Below, one piece after another: positions 2,949 through 31,064 of a stretch of 33,286 bases of DNA. The translations under genes and the position numbers were made by a program. The notes beneath the pieces were generated by a model. It did not search any database. It was not told where the DNA came from and worked only from the letters and a program-made list of their open reading frames with translations. Numbering within the stretch: the stretch's first letter is position 1; each line of letters opens with the position of its first letter. Origin of the DNA: Acidobacteriaceae bacterium (lineage in GTDB: Bacteria; Acidobacteriota; Terriglobia; Terriglobales; Acidobacteriaceae); NCBI GenBank assembly GCA_030038115.1, contig JASHPM010000013.1, positions 1 to 33,286 on the forward strand, read 5' to 3'.

Positions 2949-5099
2949 ATGTCGGGACGCGATGTACTTCTCTGCACTTTTGCCCTGGTTACCTTCACTG
3001 GATTAACGGGATGCACCGGCGGCTCGTCAAGTCCACCGCCAATACCACAGCCAACCCCGACTTCGGTCATCTTTGTCGAATCGCCGCCGTCGTCGCTGGC
3101 CGTCAACGCGAAGACGACGGTGTATGCGGTGACGCAGTTCTCTTCCGCGGGGAGCAATGAGAATACCTTCGTCACCTACGCGGTGAGCTGCGCGAGCACG
3201 AATGCGTGCGGCACGCTGAGCGCGAGCGATGAAGTGGGCGCGATGGTCTATACCGCGCCTCCTGCCGTTCCCTCCCCCGCGAACGTGACGGTGACGGCGA
3301 CATCGGTGGCGGACACCTCCCTGTCCAAATCGGCGACCATCACCATCGTGCCGCCGATTCCCATTGCGGTGACGCTGTCATCAGCGCCGGCATCGCTTGA
3401 GGTAAATGCACAGTTCGTGTTCGATGCGGGGATCGCGAACGACGTCAGCGCGAATCCAGAGGTGACATGGTCGGTCAGTTGCGGCGGCACAGCGTGCGGT
3501 TCGTTCAATCCGGCGACGACGACGAACGAGGCGCAGACGACCTATACCGCGCCAGCCACAGTTCCTCCGGGCAATACAGTCACGGTGACGGCGACCTCGG
3601 TTACGGATACGACGAAGTCGGCTTCGGCAAGCATTGTGATTACACCGCAGGCGCCGACCCTGGCCAACGGGACGTATGTATTTCAGGTAGCGGGGATCGA
3701 GACCACTGGGAGCAGCTTCGTCACCGGCGTGCTGACTGCGCAGAATGGCCAGATCACGGCGGGCGAGCAGGACGCGATCTTTGACGATGGCGATTCTGGC
3801 CCTTACTCCCAACTCCAGCAGTTCAGTGGTGGCACCTATGCCACAACGGCGGATGGGAACCTGGCCATCACGATCCAGCTGGGACCGGGGCCGTACGACA
3901 CTGAAACTCTGAACGGCACGCTGGCTTCGGCTCAACAGGGCTTCATCGGCGGGATCGATGGAGTACCTGGCAACGGCACGCTGGAGTTGCAGACATCGAC
4001 CGCGGCCCCTTCGGGCGGGTACGCGTTCGCGCTGGACGCGGCGAACTTCTCGGACGGTTCGCCGTGGATCGATGGCATCGTGAATGTGGACAGCGCGGGC
4101 GGAATCTCCGGCAACGGCAGCCTTCTGGATTTGAATTGGGAGGGATTCTTCTACGGCGGCTCGCAGACCATCGGCGCGAGCACGGTGTCGGCGCCGGACG
4201 CTTACGGCCGGGTGCTGTTTCAGCTGAATCCAACCAGCAACTCGGCGGTGCAGCCGCTGTACGTAGCGGGGTACGTGGTGGATGCGACCCACATCCGCCT
4301 GATCGACGTGGGGACTGCGAACAACAGCTACGTGGTGCAGGGAGCCGCGGGCGGCGTGGCGCTGGGGCAGGGCGCCAACACCGGCCAGTTCAGCGGCGCA
4401 TCGGTGGCCGGGTCGAGCTATGTGTTCGGCGCAGAGGGTGAGGATCGAAACGGCACTCTGCAGATCGCCGGGGTAATGACCTTCAACGCCGGGGGCAGCG
4501 TGACGGGCACACTGAACTGGAATGACCAGGGCGGAAACTCGCCCACGACTCCTCTGGCTTTCACCGGAAGCTACACAGTGGATCCGACGGGGCGGGTGAC
4601 GCTGACCGGCCTGACCGACGGCTCCAGCTTCACTTACTCACTGCATCTTTACCTGGACGGAAACGGCGGCGGGCTGGTGCTCTCCGCCGACACTGAGGAT
4701 GTCTTCGCGGGGCGGGCGTTCCAGCAACAGGCGGGTGCATTTACCGCAGCGTCGTTCAGCGGCAGCTACGGGCTGAACGCGAGCGTGTATGGCGTTCCGC
4801 AGGACGGCCTACCCGAGTTCGCAAGCGCGGTGGGACCGATCACGGTGACACCGGGCCCCGGAGTGGACAACGTTGCGGGATATGCGGATCTGGGCGCGGG
4901 AGCAGCCGACTTCGCCGTTGCCGGAAGTTTCACTCCGGCGGCGAATGGCGTCTTCACTGGCACGCTGAGCGGCCTGGGAGCAACGGCGGCATCATCCACC
5001 AATTCGTTCACGCTGTATTTGATCGACAACACCCAGGGCGTGGCGATTGAAACGGGGAGCGCGGGGCTGACGGTGGGGAGGGTTGTGAGTAGCCAGTAG
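2949..5099 (+). CDS. Large secreted lipoprotein with tandem Ig-like domains
   Basis: 716 aa; lipobox LTGCTGG; two N-terminal repeats each ending TYTAP...VTVTATSVxDTxxS; Gly/Thr/Ser-rich beta-type remainder. Confidence 0.7.
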   Translation: MSGRDVLLCTFALVTFTGLTGCTGGSSSPPPIPQPTPTSVIFVESPPSSLAVNAKTTVYAVTQFSSAGSNENTFVTYAVSCASTNACGTLSASDEVGAMVYTAPPAVPSPANVTVTATSVADTSLSKSATITIVPPIPIAVTLSSAPASLEVNAQFVFDAGIANDVSANPEVTWSVSCGGTACGSFNPATTTNEAQTTYTAPATVPPGNTVTVTATSVTDTTKSASASIVITPQAPTLANGTYVFQVAGIETTGSSFVTGVLTAQNGQITAGEQDAIFDDGDSGPYSQLQQFSGGTYATTADGNLAITIQLGPGPYDTETLNGTLASAQQGFIGGIDGVPGNGTLELQTSTAAPSGGYAFALDAANFSDGSPWIDGIVNVDSAGGISGNGSLLDLNWEGFFYGGSQTIGASTVSAPDAYGRVLFQLNPTSNSAVQPLYVAGYVVDATHIRLIDVGTANNSYVVQGAAGGVALGQGANTGQFSGASVAGSSYVFGAEGEDRNGTLQIAGVMTFNAGGSVTGTLNWNDQGGNSPTTPLAFTGSYTVDPTGRVTLTGLTDGSSFTYSLHLYLDGNGGGLVLSADTEDVFAGRAFQQQAGAFTAASFSGSYGLNASVYGVPQDGLPEFASAVGPITVTPGPGVDNVAGYADLGAGAADFAVAGSFTPAANGVFTGTLSGLGATAASSTNSFTLYLIDNTQGVAIETGSAGLTVGRVVSSQ

Positions 5100-5123
5100 G
5101 GAGTAGCCAGTAGCCAGTAGAAG
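5089..5123 (+). repeat. GTAGCCA heptad array overlapping the stop codon of the upstream CDS
   Basis: GTAGCCA GTAGGGA GTAGCCA GTAGCCA GTAGAAG; the CDS stop TAG is 5097-5099. Confidence 0.85.
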
Positions 5124-5164
5124 AACAAGGGGGAACTCAGGTAATGGGGCATTGTTGATTCGCG

Positions 5165-5185
5165 GTAGTCAACAGGTAGTGGGTG
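5165..5185 (+). repeat. Degenerate heptad array
   Basis: GTAGTCA ACAGGTA GTGGGTG. Confidence 0.4.
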
Positions 5186-5224
5186 GGGGAAAATCAGCTG
5201 CAGGCGCGTGGCGAGGCGTCCTGC

Positions 5225-5581
5225 ATGAAAGTCGAATCTTACCGCGACCTCAACGTCTGGCAACGTGCTATCCAGATGACCCTTGCGGTGTACCGGCTTA
5301 CGGCCGAATTTCCTCGAGAGGAAGTTTATGGCCTGGCCTCCCAGCTGCGAAGAGCGGGAGTTTCAGTCGCAAGCAACATCGCAGAGGGCTACGGCCGCAC
5401 TTCCAAAAGCGAGTATCGACAGTTCCTCGGAATGGCACGTGGCTCGAATCTGGAGCTGCAGACGCAGCTGGTAATCGCAAGAGAGCTCCATCCTGGCATC
5501 GCAAAGAAGATTGACGACGCTGAGAATCTGTCGTTGGAAGTCGGAAAAATGCTGGTGGTAATGATGCGCAGGCTGACCTGA
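5225..5581 (+). CDS. S23-type four-helix-bundle protein (23S rRNA intervening sequence protein family)
   Basis: MKVESYRDLNVWQRAIQMTLAVYRLTAEFPREEVYGLASQLRRAGVSVASNIAEGYGR: hallmark LNVW, FP..E.YGL..QLRRA..S..SNIAEG motifs. Confidence 0.93.
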   Translation: MKVESYRDLNVWQRAIQMTLAVYRLTAEFPREEVYGLASQLRRAGVSVASNIAEGYGRTSKSEYRQFLGMARGSNLELQTQLVIARELHPGIAKKIDDAENLSLEVGKMLVVMMRRLT

Positions 5582-5594
5582 GGTCCCAACCCTA

Positions 5595-5644
5595 CAGCTA
5601 CTCCCTGCCTTTCTACTGGCTATTGGTTATTGGCTACTCCCTGC
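5595..5644 (-). repeat. Heptad array downstream of the TolC-like gene (read on - strand)
   Basis: - strand: GCAGGGA GTAGCCA ATAACCA ATAGCCA GTAGAAA G GCAGGGA GTAGCTG. Confidence 0.75.
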
Positions 5645-5646
5645 CT

Positions 5647-7077
5647 TTACGGCGCTGTTCCCATTTCATAATTCAACGTCGCCAGCGACAGGCGGTATTG
5701 ATAGCGCGCGCTGGTGTCCTCAATCTGCGCAGTGGTTTGCTGCAGTTGCGCCTGGCTTAATTCCACAATGGAGCTCAGCCCGAGTTTGTAGCGTGCGGAG
5801 GCGAGTTCCATCGCCAGATTGGCCTCCTGCACCAGCTGCGCGGTCACGGCCATGCGCTGCCAGTTGTTCACGGACTGCAGCCAGGAGGTGCGCACATCGC
5901 GCACGATGCGGTCGCGCAGGTCGCGGCTGCTTTCGCTGGCGGCCTGGGCGCGGTACTTCGCTTCGCGCGCTTCGGAGCTGTAGAGAAAGCCGTTGAAGAT
6001 GGGGATGCTCATGTTGCCGCCGACGGCGCCCCACCAGTTGTTGATGTAGTACTGGCTGGGGTGGACCGGGACAATGCCGGTGGTGCCGGCGGCGGAGACG
6101 GTGGGCAGGAGCTGGTCCCACTGGGCGCGCTCGAACTTCTGCGCCGACTGTGTGTCCCAGGTAAGCGCCTGCAGGTCGGGACGCTGCTGCAGGGCGGTCT
6201 GGATGAGCGGATCGACGGACTGCGCCGGTGGAGGCGGCAGAGCCGTGTCTTCCACCAGGGCGTAGCGGACGTCGTGATCGAGGCCGAGCACAGCATCGAG
6301 GGCGGCCATGGTCGCCTCCGCGTTGCTCTGCGCATCGAGCTGGAGGAGCTGGGCCTGAGACAGGTCGACGTCCGCGAAACTGAGGTCGAGCGTGGACTTG
6401 AGCTTGTTGCGGGTCATCTCGCCGACCTGGGTTTCGGTGGTCTGACGGGTATTCACGGTTTGGCGGGCGACGTTGAGCTCGGCCTGCGCGGTCAGCGCGT
6501 CGTAGAAGGCCTGATCGGTGGCGAGGACGATTTCTTCGGTGGTGGCCAGAGCGCTCGCATTGGAGGCTTTTTCCTCCAGCTTGCGGGAGAGGACAAGATT
6601 GTGGGTATGGCCGAAGTCATAAATGAGCTGAGTGACGTTGGCGCCTGCGCCGACGTGCTGCAGAAGGCGTGAGGCGGTGAGCGATCCGGCCGAGAGACGG
6701 CTGGCTTCCTCGGCCTGTTCGCCGGTAGCGGCGAAGCTGGCAGCGGGAAGTTCGGCGGATTTCGCCTCGCGGTAGACCTCATGCTGGGCCAGCGCCAGCA
6801 ATTTGCCGACGCTCACCCGCGGATTGTTGCGGATGGCCAGCTGCTCCGCTTCGGCCAGCGTGAGCGTGGGAAGATTGGCCGCGGGCGCCGGTGCGGCGGA
6901 CGTTGCGGGCGCCTGGCCGGATGGCGCCGCCTGCGCCAGAAAGACCGGTTGCGCGCCGGGTTCGGTTGGCGGCACAGCAATCACGCGGGGACCGGGCGCG
7001 GCGGGCAACGTCGATTGCGCGCAGAGCCATCCGCAGGCGCTCAGCAGCGCAGCCAGCAGGATCGGAGTCTTCTTCAT
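5647..7077 (-). CDS. TolC family outer membrane efflux protein
   Basis: 476 aa; signal peptide; LTLAEAEQLAIRNNPRV and YKLGLSSIVELSQAQLQQ typical of the OEP family; shares an ATGA overlap with the permease gene. Confidence 0.92.
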   Translation of the reverse strand: MKKTPILLAALLSACGWLCAQSTLPAAPGPRVIAVPPTEPGAQPVFLAQAAPSGQAPATSAAPAPAANLPTLTLAEAEQLAIRNNPRVSVGKLLALAQHEVYREAKSAELPAASFAATGEQAEEASRLSAGSLTASRLLQHVGAGANVTQLIYDFGHTHNLVLSRKLEEKASNASALATTEEIVLATDQAFYDALTAQAELNVARQTVNTRQTTETQVGEMTRNKLKSTLDLSFADVDLSQAQLLQLDAQSNAEATMAALDAVLGLDHDVRYALVEDTALPPPPAQSVDPLIQTALQQRPDLQALTWDTQSAQKFERAQWDQLLPTVSAAGTTGIVPVHPSQYYINNWWGAVGGNMSIPIFNGFLYSSEAREAKYRAQAASESSRDLRDRIVRDVRTSWLQSVNNWQRMAVTAQLVQEANLAMELASARYKLGLSSIVELSQAQLQQTTAQIEDTSARYQYRLSLATLNYEMGTAP

Positions 7078-10000
7078 GCTTCGGCTCCTTGCCGTTCGGC
7101 GGCGATGCGCTCTCGCCGCGCATGAATCGCCAGATAGACGGCGGGGACCAGGAATACCGTGACCACCACGGAGACGGCGAGGCCGCCGATGACGGCGCGG
7201 ACCAGCGGCGCATACTGTTCACTGCCCGCTTCAAGGCCGAGGGCCATGGGAATCATACCCAGCAGCGTCGCCAGGGACGTCATCAGAATCGGCCGCAGAC
7301 GCACTTTGCACGCCTCCACTGTGGCATCCAGCAAACTCATTCCCTGCTTGTGCAGGATGCCTGAGAACTCCACGATCAGAATGCTGTTGGAAACCACGAT
7401 GCCGGTCATCATGATCACCCCCATCAGCGACATGATGTTCAGCGTACTGCCGGTAAAGAGCAGGATCATCACCACGCCCGTCAGGCCCGGAGGAATGGCC
7501 ATGAGGATGATGAACGGATCGACGAACGACCTGAACTGCGACATCAGAATCAGGTACACCAGCAGCACCGAAATAATCAGACCCAGGGCGAATTCGCGGA
7601 ATGACTGGTTCATGCTGACGACCGCGCCGCGCAGATGGAGGACGGTGTTATGGGGGACCTGCTTCTGGGTCTGCGCGATGAGCTTGCCGATGCGCGCGCC
7701 CACGCCCTCCAGCGCCTCGGTCTTTGTTGCCACGTAAATGTCGATCACGCGGCGAATCTGGTAGTGATCGACTTCGGTGGGCGTGTTAATCAGGTGAATG
7801 CTCGCTACCGAACTCAGCGGCGTGTACCCCGTGCGGTGGGAGCCGATCCATTCCCCCGGGCTGGTATCGGAAGCCTGCAGCGCGTCCTGGAGCGGGCTGT
7901 AGCCCACCGGGCGCACCCCACGCATCGGAATACTGTTGAAGTCCTGCATGGTCATGTTGTCGATCCAGCGATTCGAATACTGCACGGTCACCATGTAGTT
8001 GTTACCGCTCTTCGGATCAATCCAGTAGCTCGGCGCCACCATGCCGTCGGAGGTGAGCGCGGTGATCACGTTGTCCACCACGTCCTGCGCGGAGAGCCCG
8101 ATCAGGCTGGCTTTCTCGCGGTCGATGTCCAGCTGGATGCCCGGGTAGTTCACGTCCTGGGGAATGTACGTTCCGCTGACGTTGGGAAAGGTGCGGATTT
8201 TCGCTGCCAGTTGCTGTGCCAGCGTATAGGCCCCATCCATGTCCATGGCGCTCACCTGCACATCGATGGGCGCGGGCAATCCCTGATTGATGACGCCGTC
8301 GACCAGGCCGCCCGCCTGAAAGTACGTAGTCAGCTCCGGCATCTCGCGGGAAAGGCGATCGTGCACCCGCCGCATGTATTCATAACTGCCCACCGCGTGA
8401 TCTTCCTTCAAACTGGTTTGCACAAAGGCCGTATCCATGGAGGCATTGGGCGTGAAGATCGACGAAAGATCGGGATAGACGCCAATATTGGAAACAATCA
8501 TGCCCAGATCGGCGGGGCGGACCGTTTGGCGGATGATGTCTTCCACCTGGGCGATGTACTGATTGCTGACTTCGAGACGTGTACCCGAGGGCATGCGCAC
8601 GTTGATGACAAACTGCCCGGGATCCGTGCGCGGAAAGTAAGCGCGGCCGAGGAAGGGAAACAGTCCGATCAGCACCACAGCAACGCCGCTGAGGATGAAC
8701 ACCGCCGTCATGCCCGGCCGCACCAGCGCCCGGCGCGCCAGACCCTCGTACCAATCGAGCATCCTGCGGAAGTACTCATTGAATTTCGCCACGAACCACT
8801 GGAACCACGAAGGCCGGCCCGTGTCCTGATGCTGCTCGTCGCCGGCCGGATGATGCAGCCGCACGAACATGGAGCAGAACAGCGGCACCACGGTCATGGC
8901 GAAGAAGTACGAGGCGAAAATGGAGATGACCACGCCCAGGGCCAGCGGCGTGAAGATGTACTTGCTGATTCCGGAGAGAAAAGTCACCGGGAAAAACACA
9001 ATCGACGTGGTCGAGGTCGCGGCCAGAACCGCAAGCGAAACCTCCATCCCGCCTTTTTCCGCGGCGATGCGCGGCGGCTCACCCATTTCCATGTAGCGGA
9101 AGATGTTTTCCAGCACCACCACCGAGTCGTCGATGAGGCGCGAGAAGGCCAGCGCCAGGCCGCCCAGGATCATGGTATTCACCGTGCCGCCCATCATGTG
9201 CGTTACCAGCAGGCACACCAGCGCCGAGAGCGGAATGGAGAGCATCACGGCAAACGTGGCGCGCGGGCTGCCCAGGAAAATCAGGATCATGATGCCGGTG
9301 AGGAACAGCCCGATGGAGGCTTCCTTGACCAGGTTGCGAATGGCCAGCTTGACGAAGATGGACTGATCGAAAACCACCGCCGTCTTCAGCGACGCGGGAA
9401 TGTCCACCAGATGTTTGATGGCCTGCTTCATCCCGTCCACGATGGTGATGGTGTTGCTGTTGCCGCCCTGCTTGAAGACCGGAACGTAGACGGAGCGCTG
9501 GCCATCGATGCGGACGAAGTTGTACTGCAGCGCGCCGGCGTCGACAGCGTGGCCCACATCCGCCACCAGCACCGATCCGTTGCCCACCGACTTGAGCGGC
9601 ATCTGGTTCATGGACTCGGCGTCGGGAAACTGGCTGTTGGCGTAGATGTTGAAGTCTTTGCTTCCCACGCGCACGTCGCCGGCGGGCAGAATCAGGTTCG
9701 AGCTGTTCACCGACTTCACAATGTCATTCAGGCTCAGGTTGCGCGCTTCCAGGCGCAGCGGATCGACATACACCTGAATCTGCCGATAGGTGCCGCCGTA
9801 GGGCTGCGGGACCGAAGCGCCCTGCACATTGGAAATCTGATTGCGCACCTGGAACTGCGCCAGGTCCTTCAGCTGGGTTTCGCTCAGGCCCTTGCCTTCC
9901 AGGGTGACCAGGCAAACGGGCTGCGTGGAAGCGGTGAGGCCGAGGACCACGGGCGGCAGCGTGCCGGGCGGTAAACGCCGCAGATCGGCCATGGCGAGAT

Positions 10001-10322
10001 TGGCGACGTTGCTCAGGGCCGCATTGGGGTCGGTGCCCGGCTTGAAGTAAATCTTGATCAGGCTGACGCCGGTAAGCGAGCGCGATTCGCTGTGATCGGC
10101 ATTGGCGGCGAGCGTGAAGAAGCGCTCGAAGGTATTCGTAATGTCGGCTTCGATCTGCTGCGGCGGCATCCCGTTGTAGAAGGTGGCGACTACTACCACC
10201 GGCATGTCGATGTCGGGGAACAAATCGACGGGCATGGAGAACAAATTCACGATGCCCACCAGCGCCACCATGAGGCAGAGCATCACAATGAAGAATGGAT
10301 AGCGGAGCGCGAAACTCGGCAT
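7074..10322 (-). CDS. Efflux RND transporter permease (copy 1, membrane-proximal DD retained)
   Basis: 1082 aa; MPVDLFPDIDMP, LIDDSVVVLENIFR, RLRPILMTSLATLLGMIPMA, AcrB/MdtBC-like topology. Confidence 0.95.
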   Translation of the reverse strand: MPSFALRYPFFIVMLCLMVALVGIVNLFSMPVDLFPDIDMPVVVVATFYNGMPPQQIEADITNTFERFFTLAANADHSESRSLTGVSLIKIYFKPGTDPNAALSNVANLAMADLRRLPPGTLPPVVLGLTASTQPVCLVTLEGKGLSETQLKDLAQFQVRNQISNVQGASVPQPYGGTYRQIQVYVDPLRLEARNLSLNDIVKSVNSSNLILPAGDVRVGSKDFNIYANSQFPDAESMNQMPLKSVGNGSVLVADVGHAVDAGALQYNFVRIDGQRSVYVPVFKQGGNSNTITIVDGMKQAIKHLVDIPASLKTAVVFDQSIFVKLAIRNLVKEASIGLFLTGIMILIFLGSPRATFAVMLSIPLSALVCLLVTHMMGGTVNTMILGGLALAFSRLIDDSVVVLENIFRYMEMGEPPRIAAEKGGMEVSLAVLAATSTTSIVFFPVTFLSGISKYIFTPLALGVVISIFASYFFAMTVVPLFCSMFVRLHHPAGDEQHQDTGRPSWFQWFVAKFNEYFRRMLDWYEGLARRALVRPGMTAVFILSGVAVVLIGLFPFLGRAYFPRTDPGQFVINVRMPSGTRLEVSNQYIAQVEDIIRQTVRPADLGMIVSNIGVYPDLSSIFTPNASMDTAFVQTSLKEDHAVGSYEYMRRVHDRLSREMPELTTYFQAGGLVDGVINQGLPAPIDVQVSAMDMDGAYTLAQQLAAKIRTFPNVSGTYIPQDVNYPGIQLDIDREKASLIGLSAQDVVDNVITALTSDGMVAPSYWIDPKSGNNYMVTVQYSNRWIDNMTMQDFNSIPMRGVRPVGYSPLQDALQASDTSPGEWIGSHRTGYTPLSSVASIHLINTPTEVDHYQIRRVIDIYVATKTEALEGVGARIGKLIAQTQKQVPHNTVLHLRGAVVSMNQSFREFALGLIISVLLVYLILMSQFRSFVDPFIILMAIPPGLTGVVMILLFTGSTLNIMSLMGVIMMTGIVVSNSILIVEFSGILHKQGMSLLDATVEACKVRLRPILMTSLATLLGMIPMALGLEAGSEQYAPLVRAVIGGLAVSVVVTVFLVPAVYLAIHARRERIAAERQGAEA

Positions 10323-13300
10323 TTAGTGCGCTCCCTCCAGGCCCTCGGCTGCGCCCTCCAGGCCCTCGGCTCCGCGCTCGGTGCGGCTGTGGATGATGAG
10401 ATAAACCGCCGGGACCAAGAACATGGTGGCGACGACGGAGACGCCGAGTCCGCCAATGATGGCGCGCGCCAGAGGGGCGTACTGTTCGCTGCCGGCTTCG
10501 GCGCCGATAGCCATGGGGATCATGCCCAGCAGCGTCGCCATGGAGGTCATGAGGATGGGGCGCAGACGCATCTTGCAGGCTTCCACGGTGGCCTCAAGCA
10601 GGGGCCGGCCCTGGGCGTGCAGAATGTTCGAGAAATCGACGATGAGGATGCTGTTGGAGACCACGATGCCGGTCATCATGATGGTTCCCATCAGCGACAT
10701 GATGTTGAGCGTGCTGCCGGTGAGGAGCAGAAACACGACCACACCGGCGATGCCGGGCGGGATGGCCATGAGGATGATGAACGGATCAATGAAGGAGGTG
10801 AACTGGGCCATCAGCACGAGGTAGACGAGCGCCACGGCGATCACCAGGCCGAGGCCGAAGTCCTCAAAGGCGTCGTTCATGTTGACGACAGCGCCCCGCA
10901 GGGTGAGCAGCGTGTTCTTATCGGTTTTCGTGTTGGCGATGAGGTTGCGAATGCGCTTGCCGGTCCCGCCCAGCGCCTCCGACCTGGTCGCCACGTAGAC
11001 ATCGATCACGCGGCGAATCTGGTAATGATCGACTTCTGTCGGCGTGTTGATCAGCTGAATATCGGCCACGGAACTCAGCGGCGTGTAACCGGCTCGATGC
11101 GAGCCAACCCACTCTTCCGGGTCGGTGTCCGAAGCGTTGTGGCCCTCCTCCAGCGGACCATAGCCAGCCGGGTGAATGCCACGCAGCGGGATATTCTCGA
11201 AATCCTGCATGGTCATGTTGTCGATCCAGCGATTGGCGTACCGCACGGTGACCATGTAGTTGTTGCCGCTGGCAGGATCGATCCAGTAACTGGGTGCGAT
11301 CATCCCGTCGGAAGTTAGGGCGGTGATGACGTTGTCCACGACGTCCTGCGCGGAAAGACCGATCAGGCTGGCTTTTTCGCGGTCGATGTTCAGGGCGATG
11401 CCGGGGTAATTCACGTCCTGCGGAATATACGTCCCGCTGACGTTGGGAAAGGTGCGAATCTTCGCCGCCAGTTGCTCAGCCAGCGCGTAGGCGCCATTCA
11501 TGTCCATGGAGCTGACCTGCACATCGATGGGCGCCGGCAGCCCCTGATTGATGACGCCGTCGACCAGGCCGCCCGCCTGAAAGTAGGTGGTCAGCTCGGG
11601 CATTTCGCGGGAAAGCCGCTCGCGCACGCGCCGCATGTATTCGTAGCTGCCGATGGAGTGCCCTTCCTTCAGGCTGGTTTGCACGAAGGCCGTATCCATC
11701 GACGCGTTGGAGGTGAAAATCGCGGACAGATCGGGGTAGACGCCGATGTTGGAGACGATCATGCCCAGGTCTTTGGGGCGAACTTCCTCATGAATGATCT
11801 TCTCCACCCGGGCGATGTACTGATCGCTGACTTCCAGCCGCGTGCCCGAGGGCATGCGCACGTCGATGATGAATTGTCCGGGATCGGTGCGGGGGAAGTA
11901 CGCCCGCCCCAGGAAGGGGAAAGTGATCAGCAGTAGCACCACTACGCCGCCCAGAATGCCCGCCGTGGTCATCCCCGGGCGCTCGAGCGAGCGGCGCACC
12001 AGGCCTTCGTACCAGTTCACCATGCGCAGGAAGTAGTAGTTGAATTTGTCGACGACGGGCTGGAATCCGAACCGCCGCTTTGCCGGCGCCGCGCGATCCT
12101 CCGTTGCCTCGCGATGGGCTTCGCCATGCGGGTGGATGAACATGGCGCAGAAGAGCGGAATCACCGTCATGGCGAAGGCGTAGGAGGCGAACATGGAGAG
12201 CACCACGCCCATGGCCAGCGGAGTAAACAGATACTTGCTGACTCCGGAGAGCGCGGCGACAGGCAGGAAGACGATGGAGGTCGTGACGGTGGCCGCAAGC
12301 ACGGCCAGTGAGACCTCGGTGCCGCCTTTTTCTGCGGCAATGCGCGGAGGCTCGCCCAGTTCCATGTAACGGAAAATATTTTCGAGCACGACGACGCCGT
12401 TATCGATGAGACGGGAGAAGGCCAGGGCCAGCCCGCCCAGGATCATGGTGTTGATGGTTCCCCCCAGAACGTTGGTCATCAGCAAACAGGCGACCGCGGA
12501 TAAGGGAACCGACAGCATGACGGCGACGGTGGCGCGCGGGCTGCCGAGGAACAGCAGGATCATGAGGCCGGTGAGCACCAGGCCGATGGTGGCTTCGTTG
12601 ACGAGCTGTTTGAGCGCGAGCTTGACGAAGACGGACTGATCGAAGACGACGGCGGTGCGCAGGGAGGAGGGGATGTCGACCAGATGCTTAATGGCTTCCT
12701 TCATGCCGTCGACGATGGTGATGGTATTGCTGTTGCCGCCCTGCTTGAAGACGGGGACATACACCGAGCGCTGGCCATTAATGCGCACGATGTTGTACTG
12801 CAGAGCGCCGGAATCGACGGCGTGTCCGATGTCGGCCACCAGCACCGACCCGTTGCCCACCGACTTGAGCGGCATCTGGTTCATCGACTCGGCGTCGGGA
12901 AACTGGCTGTTGGCGTAAATGTTGAAGTCCTTGTTGCCAATGCGCACATCGCCGGCGGGCAGAATCAGGTTGGAGCTGTTGACCGCCGACACCACGTCGC
13001 TCAGGCTCAGGTTGCGCGCCTCCATCTTCAACGGATCGACGTACACCTGAATCTGCCGGTAGGTGCCGCCATAGGGCTGCGGAACGGAGGCCCCATCCAC
13101 ATTCGAGATCTGATTGCGCACCTGGAACTGCGCGTAATCCTTCAGCTGGGTTTCGTTCAGTCCCTTGCCTTCGAGCGTGACCAGGCACACCGGCTGCGTG
13201 GAGGCGGTAAGGCCCAGCACTACAGGCGGCAGCGTGCCGGGCGGCAGGCGGCGCAGATCGGCCATGGCCAGGTTCGCCACATTGCTCAGGGCCGCGTTGG

Positions 13301-13595
13301 GGTCGGTCCCCGGCTTGAAGTAAATCTTGATGAGGCTGACGCCGGTGAGCGAGCGCGATTCGCTGTGATCGGCATTGGCGGCGAGCGTGAAGAAGCGCTC
13401 GAAGGTATTCGTAATGTCGGCCTCGATCTGCTGCGGCGGCATGCCGCTGTAGAAGGTCGCGACCACCACCACGGGCATGTCGATATCCGGAAACAGATCC
13501 ACCGGCATGCTGAACAGATTCACGATGCCGACCAGCGACACCATGAGGCAGAGCATCAGGATGAAATAGGGAAACTTGAGGGCAAACTTCGGCAT
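10323..13595 (-). CDS. Efflux RND transporter permease (copy 2, DN variant)
   Basis: Likely start MPKFALKFPYF at 13595; highly similar to the neighbouring copy; LIDNGVVVLENIFR replaces LIDDS. Confidence 0.95.
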   Translation of the reverse strand: MPKFALKFPYFILMLCLMVSLVGIVNLFSMPVDLFPDIDMPVVVVATFYSGMPPQQIEADITNTFERFFTLAANADHSESRSLTGVSLIKIYFKPGTDPNAALSNVANLAMADLRRLPPGTLPPVVLGLTASTQPVCLVTLEGKGLNETQLKDYAQFQVRNQISNVDGASVPQPYGGTYRQIQVYVDPLKMEARNLSLSDVVSAVNSSNLILPAGDVRIGNKDFNIYANSQFPDAESMNQMPLKSVGNGSVLVADIGHAVDSGALQYNIVRINGQRSVYVPVFKQGGNSNTITIVDGMKEAIKHLVDIPSSLRTAVVFDQSVFVKLALKQLVNEATIGLVLTGLMILLFLGSPRATVAVMLSVPLSAVACLLMTNVLGGTINTMILGGLALAFSRLIDNGVVVLENIFRYMELGEPPRIAAEKGGTEVSLAVLAATVTTSIVFLPVAALSGVSKYLFTPLAMGVVLSMFASYAFAMTVIPLFCAMFIHPHGEAHREATEDRAAPAKRRFGFQPVVDKFNYYFLRMVNWYEGLVRRSLERPGMTTAGILGGVVVLLLITFPFLGRAYFPRTDPGQFIIDVRMPSGTRLEVSDQYIARVEKIIHEEVRPKDLGMIVSNIGVYPDLSAIFTSNASMDTAFVQTSLKEGHSIGSYEYMRRVRERLSREMPELTTYFQAGGLVDGVINQGLPAPIDVQVSSMDMNGAYALAEQLAAKIRTFPNVSGTYIPQDVNYPGIALNIDREKASLIGLSAQDVVDNVITALTSDGMIAPSYWIDPASGNNYMVTVRYANRWIDNMTMQDFENIPLRGIHPAGYGPLEEGHNASDTDPEEWVGSHRAGYTPLSSVADIQLINTPTEVDHYQIRRVIDVYVATRSEALGGTGKRIRNLIANTKTDKNTLLTLRGAVVNMNDAFEDFGLGLVIAVALVYLVLMAQFTSFIDPFIILMAIPPGIAGVVVFLLLTGSTLNIMSLMGTIMMTGIVVSNSILIVDFSNILHAQGRPLLEATVEACKMRLRPILMTSMATLLGMIPMAIGAEAGSEQYAPLARAIIGGLGVSVVATMFLVPAVYLIIHSRTERGAEGLEGAAEGLEGAH
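10333..10371. repeat. Tandem 21-bp-period duplication in the 3' end of RND copy 2
   Basis: CCCTCCAGGCCCTCGGCT at 10333-10350 and 10354-10371, encoding GLEGAAEGLEGAH. Confidence 0.85.
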
Positions 13596-13596
13596 C

Positions 13597-14886
13597 TTAC
13601 TGCGGGCCCTCACCGCCTGAGCTGCTCTGCGCGTTCATATCGATCATGCCCCCGGACTGCGGAGCTTCTTCTGACGCGGGCGTTTTCTCCACCACCGGAG
13701 TCACCGCCTCGTCTTCTGCGTATTTCGCCTGCGCGGCCACAATCACGCGATCGCCCGGGTTGAGGCCGCTCGCGATCTCCGCCAGCAAATTGCCTCGGAT
13801 GCCCACCTCGACCGTGCGGATGTGAACCCGATTCTCGCTGTCGAGCACGTACACCTGGTGCTCGTTGCCATGCAGCACAATCGCCCCCACCGGGGCCGTC
13901 GCCACATTCTCCGCGTGGTTCAGCCGCAGCATGGTGTTGGCATACATGCCGGAATCGATGGCGAGGCTCTGGTTGGGAACGTCAATCTCCGTTTCCATGG
14001 TGCGCGTCTCGAAATTCAGCTCACGTGTGAAGCGCACGATCTTACCGGTGAACGATCGCCCCAGCGCGTCCACACGCACCTGGACCGGGTCGCCCAGGTG
14101 CACGTAGCGGACGTAAGCTTCCGGCACCGGCAGCCGCAGCCGCATCACGCCGCTCTGCGCCAGCTTCACGATGGGCAGGTCCTGCACGTTGGAGCTGATG
14201 CCGGACTGAATCAGCGCGCCCGTGTCCGCATAGCGCCAGACGATGACTCCATCCAGAGGGGCGACGACGTTGGTGTAGCCCTCGAGTGCACTCACCCGCG
14301 CATTATCGTCTTTTGAAACTTCCATTCCCTTCTGCGCCGCGGCCAGCGCTGCTTTCGCCGCATCCACGTCCGCGCCCGACGACATGTCCTTCGCCTGGGC
14401 ATCGTCCAGTTCCTGCTGCGCCACCAGTCCAGGCTGCGCTTCCGAGGTCTGCAGCAGCCGTTGATAATCGGCATGCAGCGCGCTGTGCATCGATTCGGCT
14501 CGCTTCACCTCATGCTCGGCGCGCACGATTTCGTCGCTGCTGCGCGCCACTTCCGATACCGTGCCCGCCAGCTGCGCTTTCAGCTCCGGCACCTCCAGCA
14601 CCGCCAGCGTCTGTCCCTGGTGCACGCGGTCGCCGATGTCGACGTAGATATTGCGAATGAACCCTGACACCTTGGGGTGCACATCGACGACCTGATAAGG
14701 CTGGAACTGCCCGGCCAGGGTCAGCACCTGGGCAATATCGCCGCGCTGCACTACCGCGACCTGCGCCGCCGGCGGGCCGGGCGCAGCCTCCACCGTCGCC
14801 GCCCGGTGACGCCCATACCAAATCGAAACCACCACAGCAAGGGCGAGAACAACGGCAGAAATAACGATCCATAAACGCTTGCGCAT
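13597..14886 (-). CDS. Efflux RND transporter periplasmic adaptor subunit (MFP)
   Basis: Start MRKRLWIVISAVVLALAVVV at 14886; VHPKVSGFIRNIYVDIGDRVHQGQTLAVLEVPEL biotinyl/lipoyl-like hairpin; VVAPLDGVIVWRYADTGALI. Confidence 0.93.
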   Translation of the reverse strand: MRKRLWIVISAVVLALAVVVSIWYGRHRAATVEAAPGPPAAQVAVVQRGDIAQVLTLAGQFQPYQVVDVHPKVSGFIRNIYVDIGDRVHQGQTLAVLEVPELKAQLAGTVSEVARSSDEIVRAEHEVKRAESMHSALHADYQRLLQTSEAQPGLVAQQELDDAQAKDMSSGADVDAAKAALAAAQKGMEVSKDDNARVSALEGYTNVVAPLDGVIVWRYADTGALIQSGISSNVQDLPIVKLAQSGVMRLRLPVPEAYVRYVHLGDPVQVRVDALGRSFTGKIVRFTRELNFETRTMETEIDVPNQSLAIDSGMYANTMLRLNHAENVATAPVGAIVLHGNEHQVYVLDSENRVHIRTVEVGIRGNLLAEIASGLNPGDRVIVAAQAKYAEDEAVTPVVEKTPASEEAPQSGGMIDMNAQSSSGGEGPQ

Positions 14887-15022
14887 ATTCGGCAAACTAC
14901 CTTCCTGGGAATTGAAGGGCCTGGCCCGATCAAAAACTCGGCCGGAAAGGAAGCATTCGCGCACTCGCGGCGCCGGAAATGGCGGTACGCCGCGGCAACT
15001 GGCGCCAGTTCTTAGATGTAAA

Positions 15023-15523
15023 TCAGCGGATACGCGGCGGAGGACGAACGAAGCAGGGACCCCACCGGTCATTGGCCGCGGCGATACGGGCAGGCGCGGT
15101 TCTCCGCATCCAGCCGCCGAACCCGGGCTGTAACTTCGCAGCTGCCGATGTGAAAAGCACGAGCGTCAGGATGCTCAGCGCCCCTGGGACGATGGGATTT
15201 CCGGCGAGCCGCCCAACCCCCGCGCGCGAAATCGGATTCCGCTCTTTTCCGGGAGGCAGCAGCTTGGCCGCCGGCATGTGGTGCGAGATCGCGTGCGGCG
15301 GATCGTAGAGCGACAGCTTGTACTTCAGCCCCCATGCAAAGACGCACAGCCCCAGCAGCGCCAGCCCGAACGCCAGAAGGCGGAAGCTCGGCCGGCTAAC
15401 TCGAATTGAAGTGGGGCGTGGGATCGTCACCTTGCTCTGGTCCGATGATGCCACAAAGTTGGACGGTTCCCCAAGCTCATGGGTGAGCGAACCATCCCGT
15501 GAACCCCCTTCCTTTCCGGCCAT
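15023..15523 (-). CDS. Hypothetical small membrane protein
   Basis: ORF with two hydrophobic segments (LLAFGLALLGLCVFAWGLKY; PIVPGALSILTLVLFTSAAA); upstream of and co-oriented with the efflux operon; start uncertain. Confidence 0.5.
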   Translation of the reverse strand: MAGKEGGSRDGSLTHELGEPSNFVASSDQSKVTIPRPTSIRVSRPSFRLLAFGLALLGLCVFAWGLKYKLSLYDPPHAISHHMPAAKLLPPGKERNPISRAGVGRLAGNPIVPGALSILTLVLFTSAAAKLQPGFGGWMRRTAPARIAAANDRWGPCFVRPPPRIR

Positions 15524-24227: not shown

Positions 24228-26000
24228 CTACTGCCTCCCGTTTAACCCCAGTTCCACGGTCCCAATCCGCCCGCCGGCCGCATCCCGCACGCCCAGTTGC
24301 AGCCACACCGGCCCCGCCGGCACATCGATCTGCTGCCGCACCCGCAGCTCGCTCTGCACATCCCGCGCTGTCTGCGCGGCGGGCAGCGTTGCTTCCAGGC
24401 CCGCATCAGTGAAGTTCAGGCGCTTGCCGTCCGGGCTGTAAACCGCCTGTATCACTTCCAACTCCGCCCGCTGCTTCCCGCCCGGCAGATCCTGCAGCAC
24501 CAGTTGATGCGGATCAATCGAGTAGTCCACGAAATACCGTGTCACCGGCGGCTGCAGCGGCTCCGGCGGTTTCCCCGCCAGACCCGGCGCCGGTTGCAGT
24601 CCATGCAACTCCGGATCGCTCGCCGGCAGCACCCGCGCTTCGAAAATCACCTGCGAAAGCGGAGGAACTCCCGGCTCCATCGCCTCCGCCATCGGACTCG
24701 GCATCGCCGTCTCCTTTCCCGTCTTGTTGGGATCGACCGCAAAGTATCCCCGCCGATAGGCCAGTTCGTACTTTCCCTCCGTCATCCGCACCGTGATGCG
24801 GTGATACGCCCCGTCGTCCTTCGCCTCCTGTGGCGCGTAACCCAGGGTGTAGTAGTTCTCGCCATCCGCGATCGCCGCCTCTACCGCTTTCCCCACCGCA
24901 TTCGTGTTGGTGAACGCCACTCCCCCCGTGTCCGCCGCTACCCGCTTCATTTCCTGCTGCGATTCGCCCCACTGCTGCGGAACCGTGATATCGTTCTGCG
25001 CGGCCTCGCCCGTGGCAGCCTGCATATCCTGGTTCATTCCCATCTCTGTCGACGCGGTAACATTCGCAATGTTCGAATCCGTCAAAGTCATCTGCGCCCG
25101 CGCGTCCACGGGATACACCGCCACCCGCGCCTGCGTCAGTTCCGCATTCACCGTCCGCACCGCTGGCGCAAAGCGCGCCGCCTGGCCGGACTTCATCCGC
25201 GACAGGTCGGGGTCCAGAGCCCCGGACAGCCCTCCCGACACCCAGATCAGATTCTTCCGTCCCGGAACCGTGCTCAGATACCGCGCCAGCTCGCTGAACG
25301 CCCCCAGCGTGATGTCCATCCGCTGTTCTTCCTGGAACGTCTGCCGGCCCTTGTCCTGCTGCGGCATCTCCAGAAGTGCCGCGGTCATCTCTTCGCCGAT
25401 TTGCTTTTCAGCAACCTCGTCCTGGGGATTCGTCGTGAGGTTCGTCTGGGTTGGCGCTTGCTCCAGCACCTCTTCGATTGTCCCCACATTGGTCGTGAAC
25501 CCGGAAATCATCCGCAGCCGCGACCCCAGCGTAAAGACCGCGATCTGCGTCCCCGCCGGAATCGTGTGCAGATACCGGAGGACCTGCGTCCGCGCATAGG
25601 TCTGATCGTTCACCGCAGTATTCAGAGCGTCCAGCAGCAGCACATTTGCCGCGCTCGTAACCCGGTACTGCGGAGCATCGCTGTACACGTGCGGCGGCAG
25701 CACCGGAGCCTTCGCCGACTCCTGCACATCGGTGGCTTTGTGCTCCTCGAAAACCGTGACCGTTTGCGGCTTGCCGTCTTCCAGCACCTGGAACTCCGAT
25801 GGCCGCAGTCCCTCCAACGGCTTCCCGTTGTCCCGTACCACCACGTCCAGCAGAACCAGATTGGCGTTGGCCTGAAAGGTGGGCACCGAACCCGCCTCGC
25901 GTTGTTGCGCAGGATTCCCGCCCGTCTGCGCGGCTCCTACCCAGACCAGCGTTGACCCAAATCCCACCGAAACAGCAAGGAACCCGCGCAACCGAATCAT
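24228..26000 (-). CDS. VWA domain-containing secreted protein (TIGR03436-like)
   Basis: LVLLDVVVRDNGKPLEGLRPSEFQVLEDGKPQTVTVFE, LTLDSNIA/ARVAVYPVDARA, GGVAFTNTNAVGKAVEAAIADGENYYTLGYAP. Confidence 0.88.
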   Translation of the reverse strand: MIRLRGFLAVSVGFGSTLVWVGAAQTGGNPAQQREAGSVPTFQANANLVLLDVVVRDNGKPLEGLRPSEFQVLEDGKPQTVTVFEEHKATDVQESAKAPVLPPHVYSDAPQYRVTSAANVLLLDALNTAVNDQTYARTQVLRYLHTIPAGTQIAVFTLGSRLRMISGFTTNVGTIEEVLEQAPTQTNLTTNPQDEVAEKQIGEEMTAALLEMPQQDKGRQTFQEEQRMDITLGAFSELARYLSTVPGRKNLIWVSGGLSGALDPDLSRMKSGQAARFAPAVRTVNAELTQARVAVYPVDARAQMTLTDSNIANVTASTEMGMNQDMQAATGEAAQNDITVPQQWGESQQEMKRVAADTGGVAFTNTNAVGKAVEAAIADGENYYTLGYAPQEAKDDGAYHRITVRMTEGKYELAYRRGYFAVDPNKTGKETAMPSPMAEAMEPGVPPLSQVIFEARVLPASDPELHGLQPAPGLAGKPPEPLQPPVTRYFVDYSIDPHQLVLQDLPGGKQRAELEVIQAVYSPDGKRLNFTDAGLEATLPAAQTARDVQSELRVRQQIDVPAGPVWLQLGVRDAAGGRIGTVELGLNGRQ

Positions 26001-27743: not shown

Positions 27744-29792
27744 ATGAACCTGAATCAATTGGCGCGCACAGTACGGCGAGCGACGCTGGCCGGCGCGATA
27801 CTGACAGGAACGATGCTGGCGCAGCCCGGAGCCACCCCGGAGTTTGTGAATACCCTCATGCCCCAGCCGGCTCAGCTCACGGTGGGCAACGGCCTGCTGG
27901 ACATCTCGCACGGTGTCGCCATCAGCTTCGATAAGTTCCACGATGATCGCCTGGATAATGCCGTCACGTGGGCCCGCGAGCGCCTGCAGGAGCAAACGGG
28001 GGCGATGATGCAGGCGGACGCGGCGTCCCTGGTCATCTCCGTCGACGGAGCCGGCGAGGCCGTCCAGGGCCTCGACGAGGACGAGTCCTACTCGCTCGAC
28101 GTCACACCCCAGGGCATCCATTTGCACGCGGCCACTGACGTTGGCGCCATGCGCGGCCTTGAAACCCTGCTCCAGCTGGTGCAGTCCGGCGACAACAGCT
28201 TCTGGCTTCCCGCCGTCTCCATTCAGGATTCCCCACGCTTCCGCTGGCGTGGCCTCATGATCGACTGCTCGCGCCACTTTGAGCCTGTCGGCGTCATCGA
28301 GCGCACCCTCGACGGCATGGCCGCCGTCAAAATGAACGTCTTCCACTGGCATCTGACCGACGATCAGGGCTTTCGCATCGAGAGCCAGATCTACCCCAAA
28401 CTCACCGGTCTGGGCTCCGACGGCCAGTACTACACACAGGATCAGGCCAGGGAAATCGTCGCCTACGCGCGCGGCCTCGGCATCCGCGTGGTGCCGGAGT
28501 TCGACATGCCCGGTCACAGCACTTCCTGGGCCGTGGGCTATCCCGACCTCGCCAGCGCGGCCGGCCCGTTCACCATTGAGCGTCGCTTCGGCGTGTTCGA
28601 CGTGGTGATGGACCCCACGCGCGAGAGCACCTACGCGTTTCTCGACAAATTCATTGGCGAAATGGCGGCGATTTTCCCCGACGAGTACATGCATATCGGC
28701 GGCGATGAAAACAACGGCGCCGAATGGAAGCAGAATGCGCGCATCCAGGCCTTCATGACCGCGCACAATCTCAAAGACACCGCCGCGCTCCAGGCCTATT
28801 TCAATCAAAAACTGTTACAAATCCTCACAAAACACGGAAAGAAGATGATCGGCTGGGACGAAGTTCTCAACCCCGGACTTCCCAAAGACGTCGTGGTGCA
28901 GTCCTGGCGTGGCTTTAACTCGCTGGCCGCCGGTGCCAGGCAGGGTTACAGCGGCATCCTCTCGGCGGGCTATTATCTCGATCACATGGAACCCGCCGCG
29001 GCGCACTACCGAGTCGATCCCCTCCCCGCCAACAACAATCTCACTCCCGAGGAGGCGGCCCGCATCCTGGGAGGCGAAGCCTGCAGCTGGGGCGAGTACG
29101 TCGACCCGCGCACCATCGACTCGCGCATCTGGCCGCGCACCGCGGCCATCGCCGAGCGCCTGTGGTCGCCGCGCACTGTCACCAGCGAGGACGACATGTA
29201 CCGCCGCCTCGCCGTCGAGTCTCTGCGTCTGGAAGAGCTGGGGTTGACGCACATCTCACAGGAAGAGGCCAGCCTCCGCGCCCTGGCCGGAACCCAGCAG
29301 ATCGATGCCCTGCGCCCGCTCATGGCCGTGCTGGAGCCGGTGAATTTCGACACGCGCTCGCACTGGTCCGAGGCGCACGGTGTGACCACACTCACGCCCA
29401 TCAACCAACTAGTCGACGCTTTGCCGCCCGATCCACCCTCACGTCATGATTTCGGCGACCTGATGAGTACTTACCTGGAGGATCCGGTGGCCCACGTCGA
29501 GGAGGAAGCGGCGCTGGAGGACACGTTTCAGTCCTGGGTGGCGTCTCCCGAGCTGATGGAGCTGATGTCCAGCTCGCCGCAACTCGCCGCCGCACTGCCC
29601 CGCGCGCAACAGCTTGCCGAACTCGGTACGCTGGGCCGCGAGGCGGTGTCGTACCTCTCGTCGGGTGTCCCCGCCCCGCCCGGATGGAAAGCCCAGAAGC
29701 TTGCCTTTCTCGACGAGGCAGAGCAGCCGGTAGCGCTCACGCGCTTCACCGTCCTCAAACCGCTGCGCGACCTGGTGAATGAAGTGAAGTGA
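27744..29792 (+). CDS. Glycoside hydrolase family 20 beta-N-acetylhexosaminidase
   Basis: RWRGLMIDCSRHF, FHWHLTDDQGFRIE, PEFDMPGHS, MHIGGDENNGAEW (D-E catalytic pair), signal peptide. Confidence 0.95.
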   Translation: MNLNQLARTVRRATLAGAILTGTMLAQPGATPEFVNTLMPQPAQLTVGNGLLDISHGVAISFDKFHDDRLDNAVTWARERLQEQTGAMMQADAASLVISVDGAGEAVQGLDEDESYSLDVTPQGIHLHAATDVGAMRGLETLLQLVQSGDNSFWLPAVSIQDSPRFRWRGLMIDCSRHFEPVGVIERTLDGMAAVKMNVFHWHLTDDQGFRIESQIYPKLTGLGSDGQYYTQDQAREIVAYARGLGIRVVPEFDMPGHSTSWAVGYPDLASAAGPFTIERRFGVFDVVMDPTRESTYAFLDKFIGEMAAIFPDEYMHIGGDENNGAEWKQNARIQAFMTAHNLKDTAALQAYFNQKLLQILTKHGKKMIGWDEVLNPGLPKDVVVQSWRGFNSLAAGARQGYSGILSAGYYLDHMEPAAAHYRVDPLPANNNLTPEEAARILGGEACSWGEYVDPRTIDSRIWPRTAAIAERLWSPRTVTSEDDMYRRLAVESLRLEELGLTHISQEEASLRALAGTQQIDALRPLMAVLEPVNFDTRSHWSEAHGVTTLTPINQLVDALPPDPPSRHDFGDLMSTYLEDPVAHVEEEAALEDTFQSWVASPELMELMSSSPQLAAALPRAQQLAELGTLGREAVSYLSSGVPAPPGWKAQKLAFLDEAEQPVALTRFTVLKPLRDLVNEVK

Positions 29793-29794
29793 AA

Positions 29795-29815
29795 ACAGCC
29801 AGTAGCCAGTGGCGT
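29795..29815 (+). repeat. Heptad array downstream of the GH20 gene
   Basis: ACAGCCA GTAGCCA GTGGCGT. Confidence 0.6.
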
Positions 29816-29875
29816 GGGATTTTGGAGAGGGCCGCACTGGTTGCCTTCTCGCAACCGCCTTTCGCTGCTCGCCGC

Positions 29876-29947
29876 AGGCTGCAGGCTACCCGCTACAGGC
29901 TACCGGCTGCATTTTGGGTTTTCTACTCCCTGCACCCTACTGGCTAC
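29876..29947 (-). repeat. Heptad arrays at and downstream of the mnmA stop codon
   Basis: - strand: GTAGCCA GTAGGGT GCAGGGA GTAGAAA (29920-29947) then GCAGCCG GTAGCCT GTAGCGG GTAGCCT GCAGCCT (29876-29910). Confidence 0.8.
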
Positions 29948-31064
29948 ACCCTGCACTTATCCAGCCGCCGCCCACTACTTCGTCGCCGTGGTAGAACACG
30001 GCCGCCTGGCCAGGCGTCACGGCGCGCTGTGGCTCGTCGAACACCGCTTCGACCTCGTCCGAACCCACGCTGCGAATCGTCGCCCACGCCGGCTCGTGCC
30101 GGTGGCGAATCTTCGCGCGCACCCGCATCTCGCCCTCCAGGCCAGGAATCGAAATCCAGTTCAGTTCCCGCGCGCGCAGCGTCCTCGTCGTCGCCTCGGC
30201 GTCCGAGCCCACGGTCACACGATGGCTCGCCTGGTCAATCTGGATCACGTACAGCGGATCGGGCGACGCCACGCCGAGCCCCTTCCGCTGTCCAACCGTG
30301 AAGTTGTGAATGCCGCGGTGCTGGCCGATCACCTCACCTGCCGTCGAGACCAGCTCTCCCGCCGTATCCGGAATCTCCTCGCCCTGCTCCTCGAGATATG
30401 CCGCGATGAAGCGCTTGTAGTCGCCGCCCGGGATAAAACAAATCTCCTGTGAGTCCGGCTTCACGGCAATCGCCAGCCCATGCTGCGCGGCGATGTCGCG
30501 CACCTCCGCCTTACGATAGCCGCCCAGCGGAAACAGCGTGCGCGAAAGCTGCTCCTGCGTCAGGCCAAACAGAAAATAGGTCTGATCCTTCGCCTGATCC
30601 ACAGGCCGGCTCAGAATCCAGCGATCGCGCGCAGGATCGTACTCATTGCGCGCGTAATGTCCCGTCGCTATGCGATCCGCACCGATCTGCCGTGCCCGCA
30701 CCAGCAGCTGATCGAACTTCAGATGGTTGTTGCACAGCGAGCACGGAATCGGTGTCCGCCCGTTCAGGTACTCGCGCACGAACGGCCGCACTACATCCTG
30801 CTCGAAGCGCTCCTGCTCATTGACCACGTAATACGGAATCCCCAGCGCCTCCGCAACGTGACGCGCGTCGTACACATCGTCGAGCGAGCAGCACCGCCCC
30901 GTCACCTGCTCCGGCATGCCCTCCTTGCCCGCCAGGCGACGCTGGTTCCACAGCTGCAGCGTCAGCCCCACCAGCTCGTAGCCCTGCGCGCGCAGCATGG
31001 CCGCGGCCGTCGACGAATCGACACCGCCGGACATAGCAACCGCAATGGTGTTGTTGAAGGACAT
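29937..31064 (-). CDS. mnmA: tRNA 2-thiouridine(34) synthase MnmA
   Basis: AMSGGVDSSTAAAML PP-loop, PCSLCN and DSQEICF cysteines, KDQTYFLFGLTQEQL, C-terminal GDEVVGGGWI. Confidence 0.96.
   Translation of the reverse strand: MSFNNTIAVAMSGGVDSSTAAAMLRAQGYELVGLTLQLWNQRRLAGKEGMPEQVTGRCCSLDDVYDARHVAEALGIPYYVVNEQERFEQDVVRPFVREYLNGRTPIPCSLCNNHLKFDQLLVRARQIGADRIATGHYARNEYDPARDRWILSRPVDQAKDQTYFLFGLTQEQLSRTLFPLGGYRKAEVRDIAAQHGLAIAVKPDSQEICFIPGGDYKRFIAAYLEEQGEEIPDTAGELVSTAGEVIGQHRGIHNFTVGQRKGLGVASPDPLYVIQIDQASHRVTVGSDAEATTRTLRARELNWISIPGLEGEMRVRAKIRHRHEPAWATIRSVGSDEVEAVFDEPQRAVTPGQAAVFYHGDEVVGGGWISAGCSQ

Follow-up and report, generated by a model that had tools for sequence, protein, structure and literature searches.

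The heptad array at positions 5087-5123 (+ strand) of the window, i.e. of the whole 33,286-nt stretch of Acidobacteriaceae DNA that was analysed, is best read as one terminal arm, the left one, of a small mobile element carrying an IVP gene; to this explanation in full, its inferred steps included, we assign a probability of roughly 70%. The element would measure about 0.4-0.6 kb and consist of a YAG heptad array, the IVP gene, coding for an Avd-like four-helix bundle, and an inverted copy of the array. It would insert directly after stop codons, in most cases within an operon and oriented in sense, and its transcript would fold to a hairpin closed by both arrays, as that of the 23S rRNA intervening sequence (IVS) does. 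The anatomy of the element, the complementarity of its arrays, their orientation, the association with IVP and the occurrence of empty sites are established by the comparisons described here.

The left array reads GAGTAGCCAGTAGGGAGTAGCCAGTAGCCAGTAG and contains about 4.9 imperfect units GTAGCCA/GTAGGGA with YAG on the + strand; GTAGCCAGTAGCCA, searched with at most one mismatch, matched twice in the window versus 0.00 times in 100 shuffles. The C-terminus and the stop codon of the upstream gene (2949-5099, +, 716 aa) are written by this array, the stop codon being the array's TAG at 5097-5099. The 716-aa protein had no Pfam match; it has paralogs in its own genome, and in the genus larger homologs with internally repeated matches are found. 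The IVP gene (5225-5581, +, 118 aa, PF05635 23S_rRNA_IVP) follows, and behind it lies the inverted right array CTACTGGCTATTGGTTATTGGCTAC (5610-5644, − strand), which carries YAG on the − strand and pairs with 5096-5123. Next to it the convergent gene for an outer membrane efflux protein (PF02321; 5647-7077, −) belongs to an efflux locus (5647-15072) that also comprises two tandem AcrB-type pumps and an HlyD-type adaptor. No Rfam family matched in the window, and the neighbours of the element are protein genes, not rRNA. A Pfam scan of 25 window ORFs detected no transposase, reverse transcriptase or integrase.

Three further places in the window carry arrays of the heptad family. A solo degenerate array (2711-2755, +) lies directly 3' of the stop of gene 1152-2708, a short array (29794-29812, +) 3' of the stop of the GH20 gene 27744-29792, and arrays on the − strand (29870-29945) 3' of the stop of the convergent tRNA_Me_trans gene 29937-31064. 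The latter two could be the left and right arms of an IVP-less hairpin. A 13-nt tandem repeat, TCGTCCTGAGGAT, was also noted at 25417-25446 within the reading frame 24228-26000.

The transcript of the IVP element is predicted to form a hairpin (5096-5644, +; z −3.48) closed by a 28-bp terminal stem, in which 5096-5123 pairs with 5610-5623 and 5631-5644 and one heptad is bulged out. The array pair at 29790-29945 was considered as a second stable hairpin and rejected, z being only −1.72 and not significant. The 23S rRNA IVSs of Leptospira, Coxiella and Xanthomonas are likewise elements of about 430 nt with a PF05635 ORF (S23p/IVP) and inverted repeats that pair in RNA. However, an IVS lies inside an rRNA gene, whereas the window element is situated between protein genes, and its two arms consist of heptad arrays whose unit is specific to the locus. 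In the Coxiella IVS, GACAGAT heptads precede the ORF (PMC4990558), and this unit fits nnYAGnn. Mobility of IVSs was proposed in 1993, and work on Coxiella suggests that the bacterium does not express its IVS protein in vivo (PMC4990558).

In the host genome (4.9 Mb, 568 contigs, 91% complete), the 15-mer AGTAGCCAGTAGCCA with at most two mismatches gave 199 matches versus 14 for the reversed control. Array counts cover 1.28 of the 4.9 Mb, in part contigs picked for having arrays; this sample contained 168 YAG-heptad arrays, while reversed-sequence controls gave 13 and 5 under two detection rules. Period 7 stands alone, with 137 arrays versus 8 at period 8. A purine- or G-rich strand was tried as the true signal and turned out weaker than YAG. 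The full IVP loci of this genome are flanked on either side by short repeats, which are mostly inverted and whose unit differs per locus (GGGAGCT...AGCTCCC, CAGGTTG...CAACCTG, TCAGCGA...TCGCTGA); at one of them (L073:3500-4150) the arms repeat with a 15-nt unit, not 7. Two decayed IVP fragments of the genome also adjoin arrays, and inverted array pairs lacking IVP are present at loci L071, L077, L110 and L122. Such pairs and the solo arrays would most simply be remnants or non-autonomous derivatives of the element.

The association of arrays with IVP genes extends over many phyla. Named genomes, scanned once, together with a sample of the family and the host genome yielded 116 IVP loci; a short tandem array was called when at least 17 of 21 positions matched. 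Arrays were present at 75% of these loci versus 13% of 82 control genes, period 7 prevailing; about a quarter of the IVP loci had no detected array. At 76 of the 116 loci the left and right flanks had at least three inverted 9-mers in common (15 loci for direct ones), as against 6.9 expected when left flanks were paired with the right flanks of other loci. The subset outside Acidobacteriota gave the same picture, with arrays at 34 of 52 loci and inverted flanks at 33 of 52 versus 2.9. When inverted, left and right units agree at 6-7 of 7 positions at 31 of 37 loci. The closest named IVP relatives belong to Acidobacteriaceae, and phages gave no IVP match.

Aligned by rotation, the units have the consensus nnYAGbn, with TAG about as frequent as CAG and a likelihood of 175.5 versus at most 122.7 for shuffled units. 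YAG was exclusive to the IVP sense strand on the left in 34 cases versus 2, and exclusive to the antisense strand on the right in 32 versus 2. Unit-to-unit mismatch was 17-19% at A and G and 26-33% elsewhere; this better keeping of A and G is a modest point, because GC was kept equally well in the control. Where both neighbours of an IVP gene share one strand, IVP is on the same strand in 75 cases and on the opposite one in 7, a count made on home-made gene calls that favour longer ORFs, with which the annotated plasmid loci mostly agree. Thus, like an IVS in rRNA, the element is part of transcripts in the sense direction. In Riemerella (L317:1965-2381), a heptad-armed IVP gene separates sufB from an accessory gene of iron-sulfur assembly.

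It is improbable that the arrays are neutral simple-sequence repeats, produced by polymerase slippage with a 7-nt footprint and tolerated in gene gaps. The dominance of period 7 and the variable copy number would suit such an origin, and the bacterial heptamer excess has long been known and ascribed to slippage (quoted in PMC4679880). However, slippage predicts neither locus-specific reverse-complement arrays some 500 bp apart nor their enrichment beside IVP genes, neither a YAG core common across phyla nor arrays and IVP behaving as one polymorphic insertion unit. Slippage may set the copy number of units within an array.

The preliminary description had regarded the heptad as a strand-specific stop cassette, and its reading of the sequence holds: repetition of GTAGCCA places TAG in all three + frames of 5087-5123, and the complement is free of stops in every frame and reads YWLLATG-like repeats. 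It had also stated that the stop-bearing strand is mostly the coding strand of the upstream gene, which is true of every array of the family seen in the window, namely 2713-2746, 5087-5120 and 29794-29812 on + and 5613-5640 and 29870-29945 on −; each shares its strand with the gene whose stop it adjoins, and for the − strand arrays this same-strand partner is the outer-membrane efflux gene (5613-5640) or the tRNA_Me_trans gene (29870-29945). The orientation count that it had called for, run on the 1.28 Mb sample, revealed a clear bias, and the lack of bias that it had named as refutation was not observed: of the 141 intergenic arrays flanked by a gene on either side, 97 are preceded by a stop on their own strand, where 44.7% are expected from gap lengths (p=1e-8), and 64 of these 97 overlap the stop or lie at most 20 nt from it.

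The stops themselves are not the cause of this bias, because arrays without TAG keep it: TAG-majority arrays were oriented 40:18 and CAG-majority arrays 61:27 (odds ratio 0.98, p=1.0). Three-frame stops made no difference (36:14 with them, 65:31 in the remaining arrays, p=0.71); as a weak residue, the bias was weaker in arrays whose other strand is fully stopped (11:11 vs 90:34, p=0.045). Left arrays flanking IVP genes in many phyla, with a stop on the sense strand only in 7 cases and on the antisense strand only in 12, likewise have no preference for the stop-bearing strand, and the core common to units is YAG, with TAG and CAG in similar frequency. The published TAACTGA heptad even has its stops on the strand opposite relative to YAG (PMC4679880). 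That arrays were selected for all-frame stops, which would make them barriers to read-through or safe places for insertion at the ends of genes, is thus very improbable, in spite of the strong same-strand bias; the proposed action as read-through barriers fails on the CAG-rich arrays. Stops do matter locally for tolerance, since an array that overlaps a gene's stop codon supplies the TAG in 23 of 25 cases; TAG stops are also enriched in genes preceding arrays (33/69 vs 249/876). The TAG stops are a by-product of the YAG core, not the purpose of the array, and the array is tolerated by selection only at or behind gene ends. Of the suggestion that arrays are tolerated sites for element insertion at gene ends, insertion at gene ends survives, but the arrays are more aptly seen as arms of the inserted element than as sites for one. 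For TAACTGA, MacGregor 2015 (PMC4679880) had earlier formulated the all-frame-stop constraint at the ends of genes.

When the IVP protein of the window was analyzed, it matched PF05635 with E 1.6e-34, above the curated cut-off, and bAvd weakly (E 1.6e-4). A resemblance of PF05635 to Avd has been described (PMC10053308). The structure model is a confident four-helix bundle (pLDDT 91.7) and is nearest to 2GSC and 2RLD, each with five chains, followed by Avd of the diversity-generating retroelement (DGR) reverse-transcriptase particle. Chains of 4DWL/8UB7 were matched with TM of about 0.7-0.8 at E 0.02-0.15, so that the Avd match denotes fold likeness only. With DGRs the element has an Avd-fold protein in common (4DWL and 8UB7 being among the matches), but it differs from them in that no reverse transcriptase matched among the scanned window ORFs. 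TRAP reads NAG repeats; by analogy, IVP as a ring might read the evenly spaced YAG in RNA. RNase III may trim the stem, and IVP might drive mobility together with a partner enzyme.

A related system working on DNA, in which IVP would act on ssDNA hairpins during replication and copy heptad hairpins as RAYTs do REPs, is unlikely. The resemblance to REP/REPIN-RAYT lies in the short inverted repeats dispersed between genes and near gene ends, the repeat-flanked helper gene in the genome and the dispersed non-autonomous IVP-less pairs, which are found in the host genome and as a cyanobacterial mini-element. However, the 25 window ORFs gave no Pfam match to RAYT (Y1/HUH transposase), the arms are tandem heptads, and IVP, with no Pfam match to a nuclease, is a helical bundle whose nearest functional relatives act with RT and RNA. 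The sense orientation in operons also points to RNA.

Occupied and empty versions of the same site support the reading as a mobile IVP element. Four cyanobacterial plasmid sites present such a contrast, each difference being a gain or a loss. At the first site, the element is located directly 3' of a stop codon in Trichormus and Scytonema and is absent in Tolypothrix PCC 7601 and N. linckia; Trichormus and Tolypothrix differ by 428 nt there, with flanks of 600 bp each that are 98.8% and 97.3% identical. Further pairs are Nostoc ATCC 53789 pNsp_a versus pNsp_b and C052_A, and Calothrix versus N. carneum and Tolypothrix. In a type I-D CRISPR operon on Anabaena sp. 90 plasmid pANA02, cas6 and cas4 are separated by an IVP element (L313:2001-2369) whose left array is very long, and Dolichospermum UHCC 0315A has no IVP at this position. 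The empty plasmid sites lack both arrays together with IVP. Direct repeats of 5 bp (GTAAT, TTCTA), which could be due to chance, flank the inserts at the two cleanest junctions. Judging from these sequence comparisons, the arrays and IVP probably form a mobile unit.

An IVP-less hairpin of 182 nt with inverted YAG arrays interrupts an IVP gene on the Nostoc N6 plasmid pNPM1 (L325:1148-1329), and a near-identical copy of this gene is without it; 40 cyanobacterial plasmid records contain relatives of the hairpin, at 76 places in all. A decayed element on Nostoc C052 pC052_E (L320:1146-1278) has retained its left array and lost most of the IVP gene by deletion. Two Calothrix plasmid copies were considered as independent moves and rejected, the surrounding genes being common to both. 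For the window locus, only 2 of 12 genus genomes have an IVP adjoining the efflux-gene ortholog, the efflux side being compared by coordinates alone. Synteny of the 716-aa gene with the efflux gene in relatives was considered and rejected, since its orthologs (L291-L293) do not lie beside that gene. Identity of the genome's other IVP copies to the window IVP is only about 42-66%, so recent bursts are not seen.

The number of arrays follows the number of IVP copies. YAGx5 matches correlated with IVP copies with rho 0.69 in 60 Acidobacteriaceae and rho 0.59 in 81 Flavobacteriaceae, in both cases uncorrected for kinship and genome size and with IVP's own arms counted. Median YAGx5 numbers were 3 in Acidobacteriaceae without IVP and 105 in those with six or more, and 0 in Flavobacteriaceae without IVP and 17.5 in the high-copy class. 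Since the reversed control pattern climbs as well (rho 0.49 in Acidobacteriaceae and 0.62 in Flavobacteriaceae), the correlation concerns heptad arrays at large. One Acidobacteriaceae genome (G061) is an exception, having no PF05635 match and 68 YAG heptad matches.

These data also bear on the idea that the arrays are regulatory or structural repeats of the host (3'-end hairpins, G-quadruplexes or binding sites of translational regulators) that IVP genes share by chance, for which we see little probability. The location at gene ends and the inverted pairs in convergent regions would be in keeping with it, and G-quadruplexes were proposed by Rehm 2015 and a post-transcriptional regulator by MacGregor 2015. 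Nevertheless, the unit sequence varies between loci of one genome, the empty sites are devoid of arrays despite flanks that are about 98% identical, array numbers are near zero in most IVP-free genomes, and the mini-hairpin 29790-29945 lacks significant stability.

Published heptads have much of this geometry. According to Rehm 2015 (PMC4692102), the heptads GGGAATC (Xanthomonas) and GGGGA(C/T)T (Nostoc) lie on the sense strand at most 50 bp from stop codons and on the antisense strand near start codons, are scarce between divergent genes and form 70-75 convergent inverted pairs. They have no YAG core and are explained there by G-quadruplexes; the text consulted makes no link to IVP. The Xanthomonas GGGAATC arrays, having the same geometry and not being YAG, are a counterpoint to our reading as IVP element arms. 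TAACTGA repeats of Beggiatoaceae, Cyanobacteria and Bacteroidetes (MacGregor 2015, PMC4679880) are likewise intergenic heptads that put stops in all frames of one strand and are tolerated where genes end, and their reverse complement TCAGTTA contains CAG. Unlike the window's left array, they are found mostly just upstream of start codons, which corresponds to the right-arm position, and have been explained as translational control (PMC4679880). A search of open-access literature brought up no paper that connects heptad repeats with IVP outside rRNA or presents such elements as insertions. Heptad geometry and IVP were each known before, and no paper of this literature was found to join them.

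To our knowledge, heptamer repeats have been on record since at least 1999 with no agreed cause, and IVP structures have been solved since 2006 with no known role. Joining the two gives testable roles: IVP would read YAG heptads, and the heptads would form the arms of an IVS-like element in mRNA. The insertion polymorphisms in cultured cyanobacteria are offered for bench study. This would explain repeats so far credited to slippage, quadruplexes or translational control. More tentatively, and at somewhat less than even chance, these may be cross-phylum minimal mobile elements without a classical recombinase of their own, whose pentameric Avd-like protein would read periodic YAG heptads in hairpin arms and mobilise its own element and, in trans, IVP-less heptad hairpins. 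If true, much of the unexplained heptamer repeat content of Acidobacteria, Cyanobacteria, Bacteroidetes, Xanthomonas and Beggiatoaceae would be debris of IVP elements.
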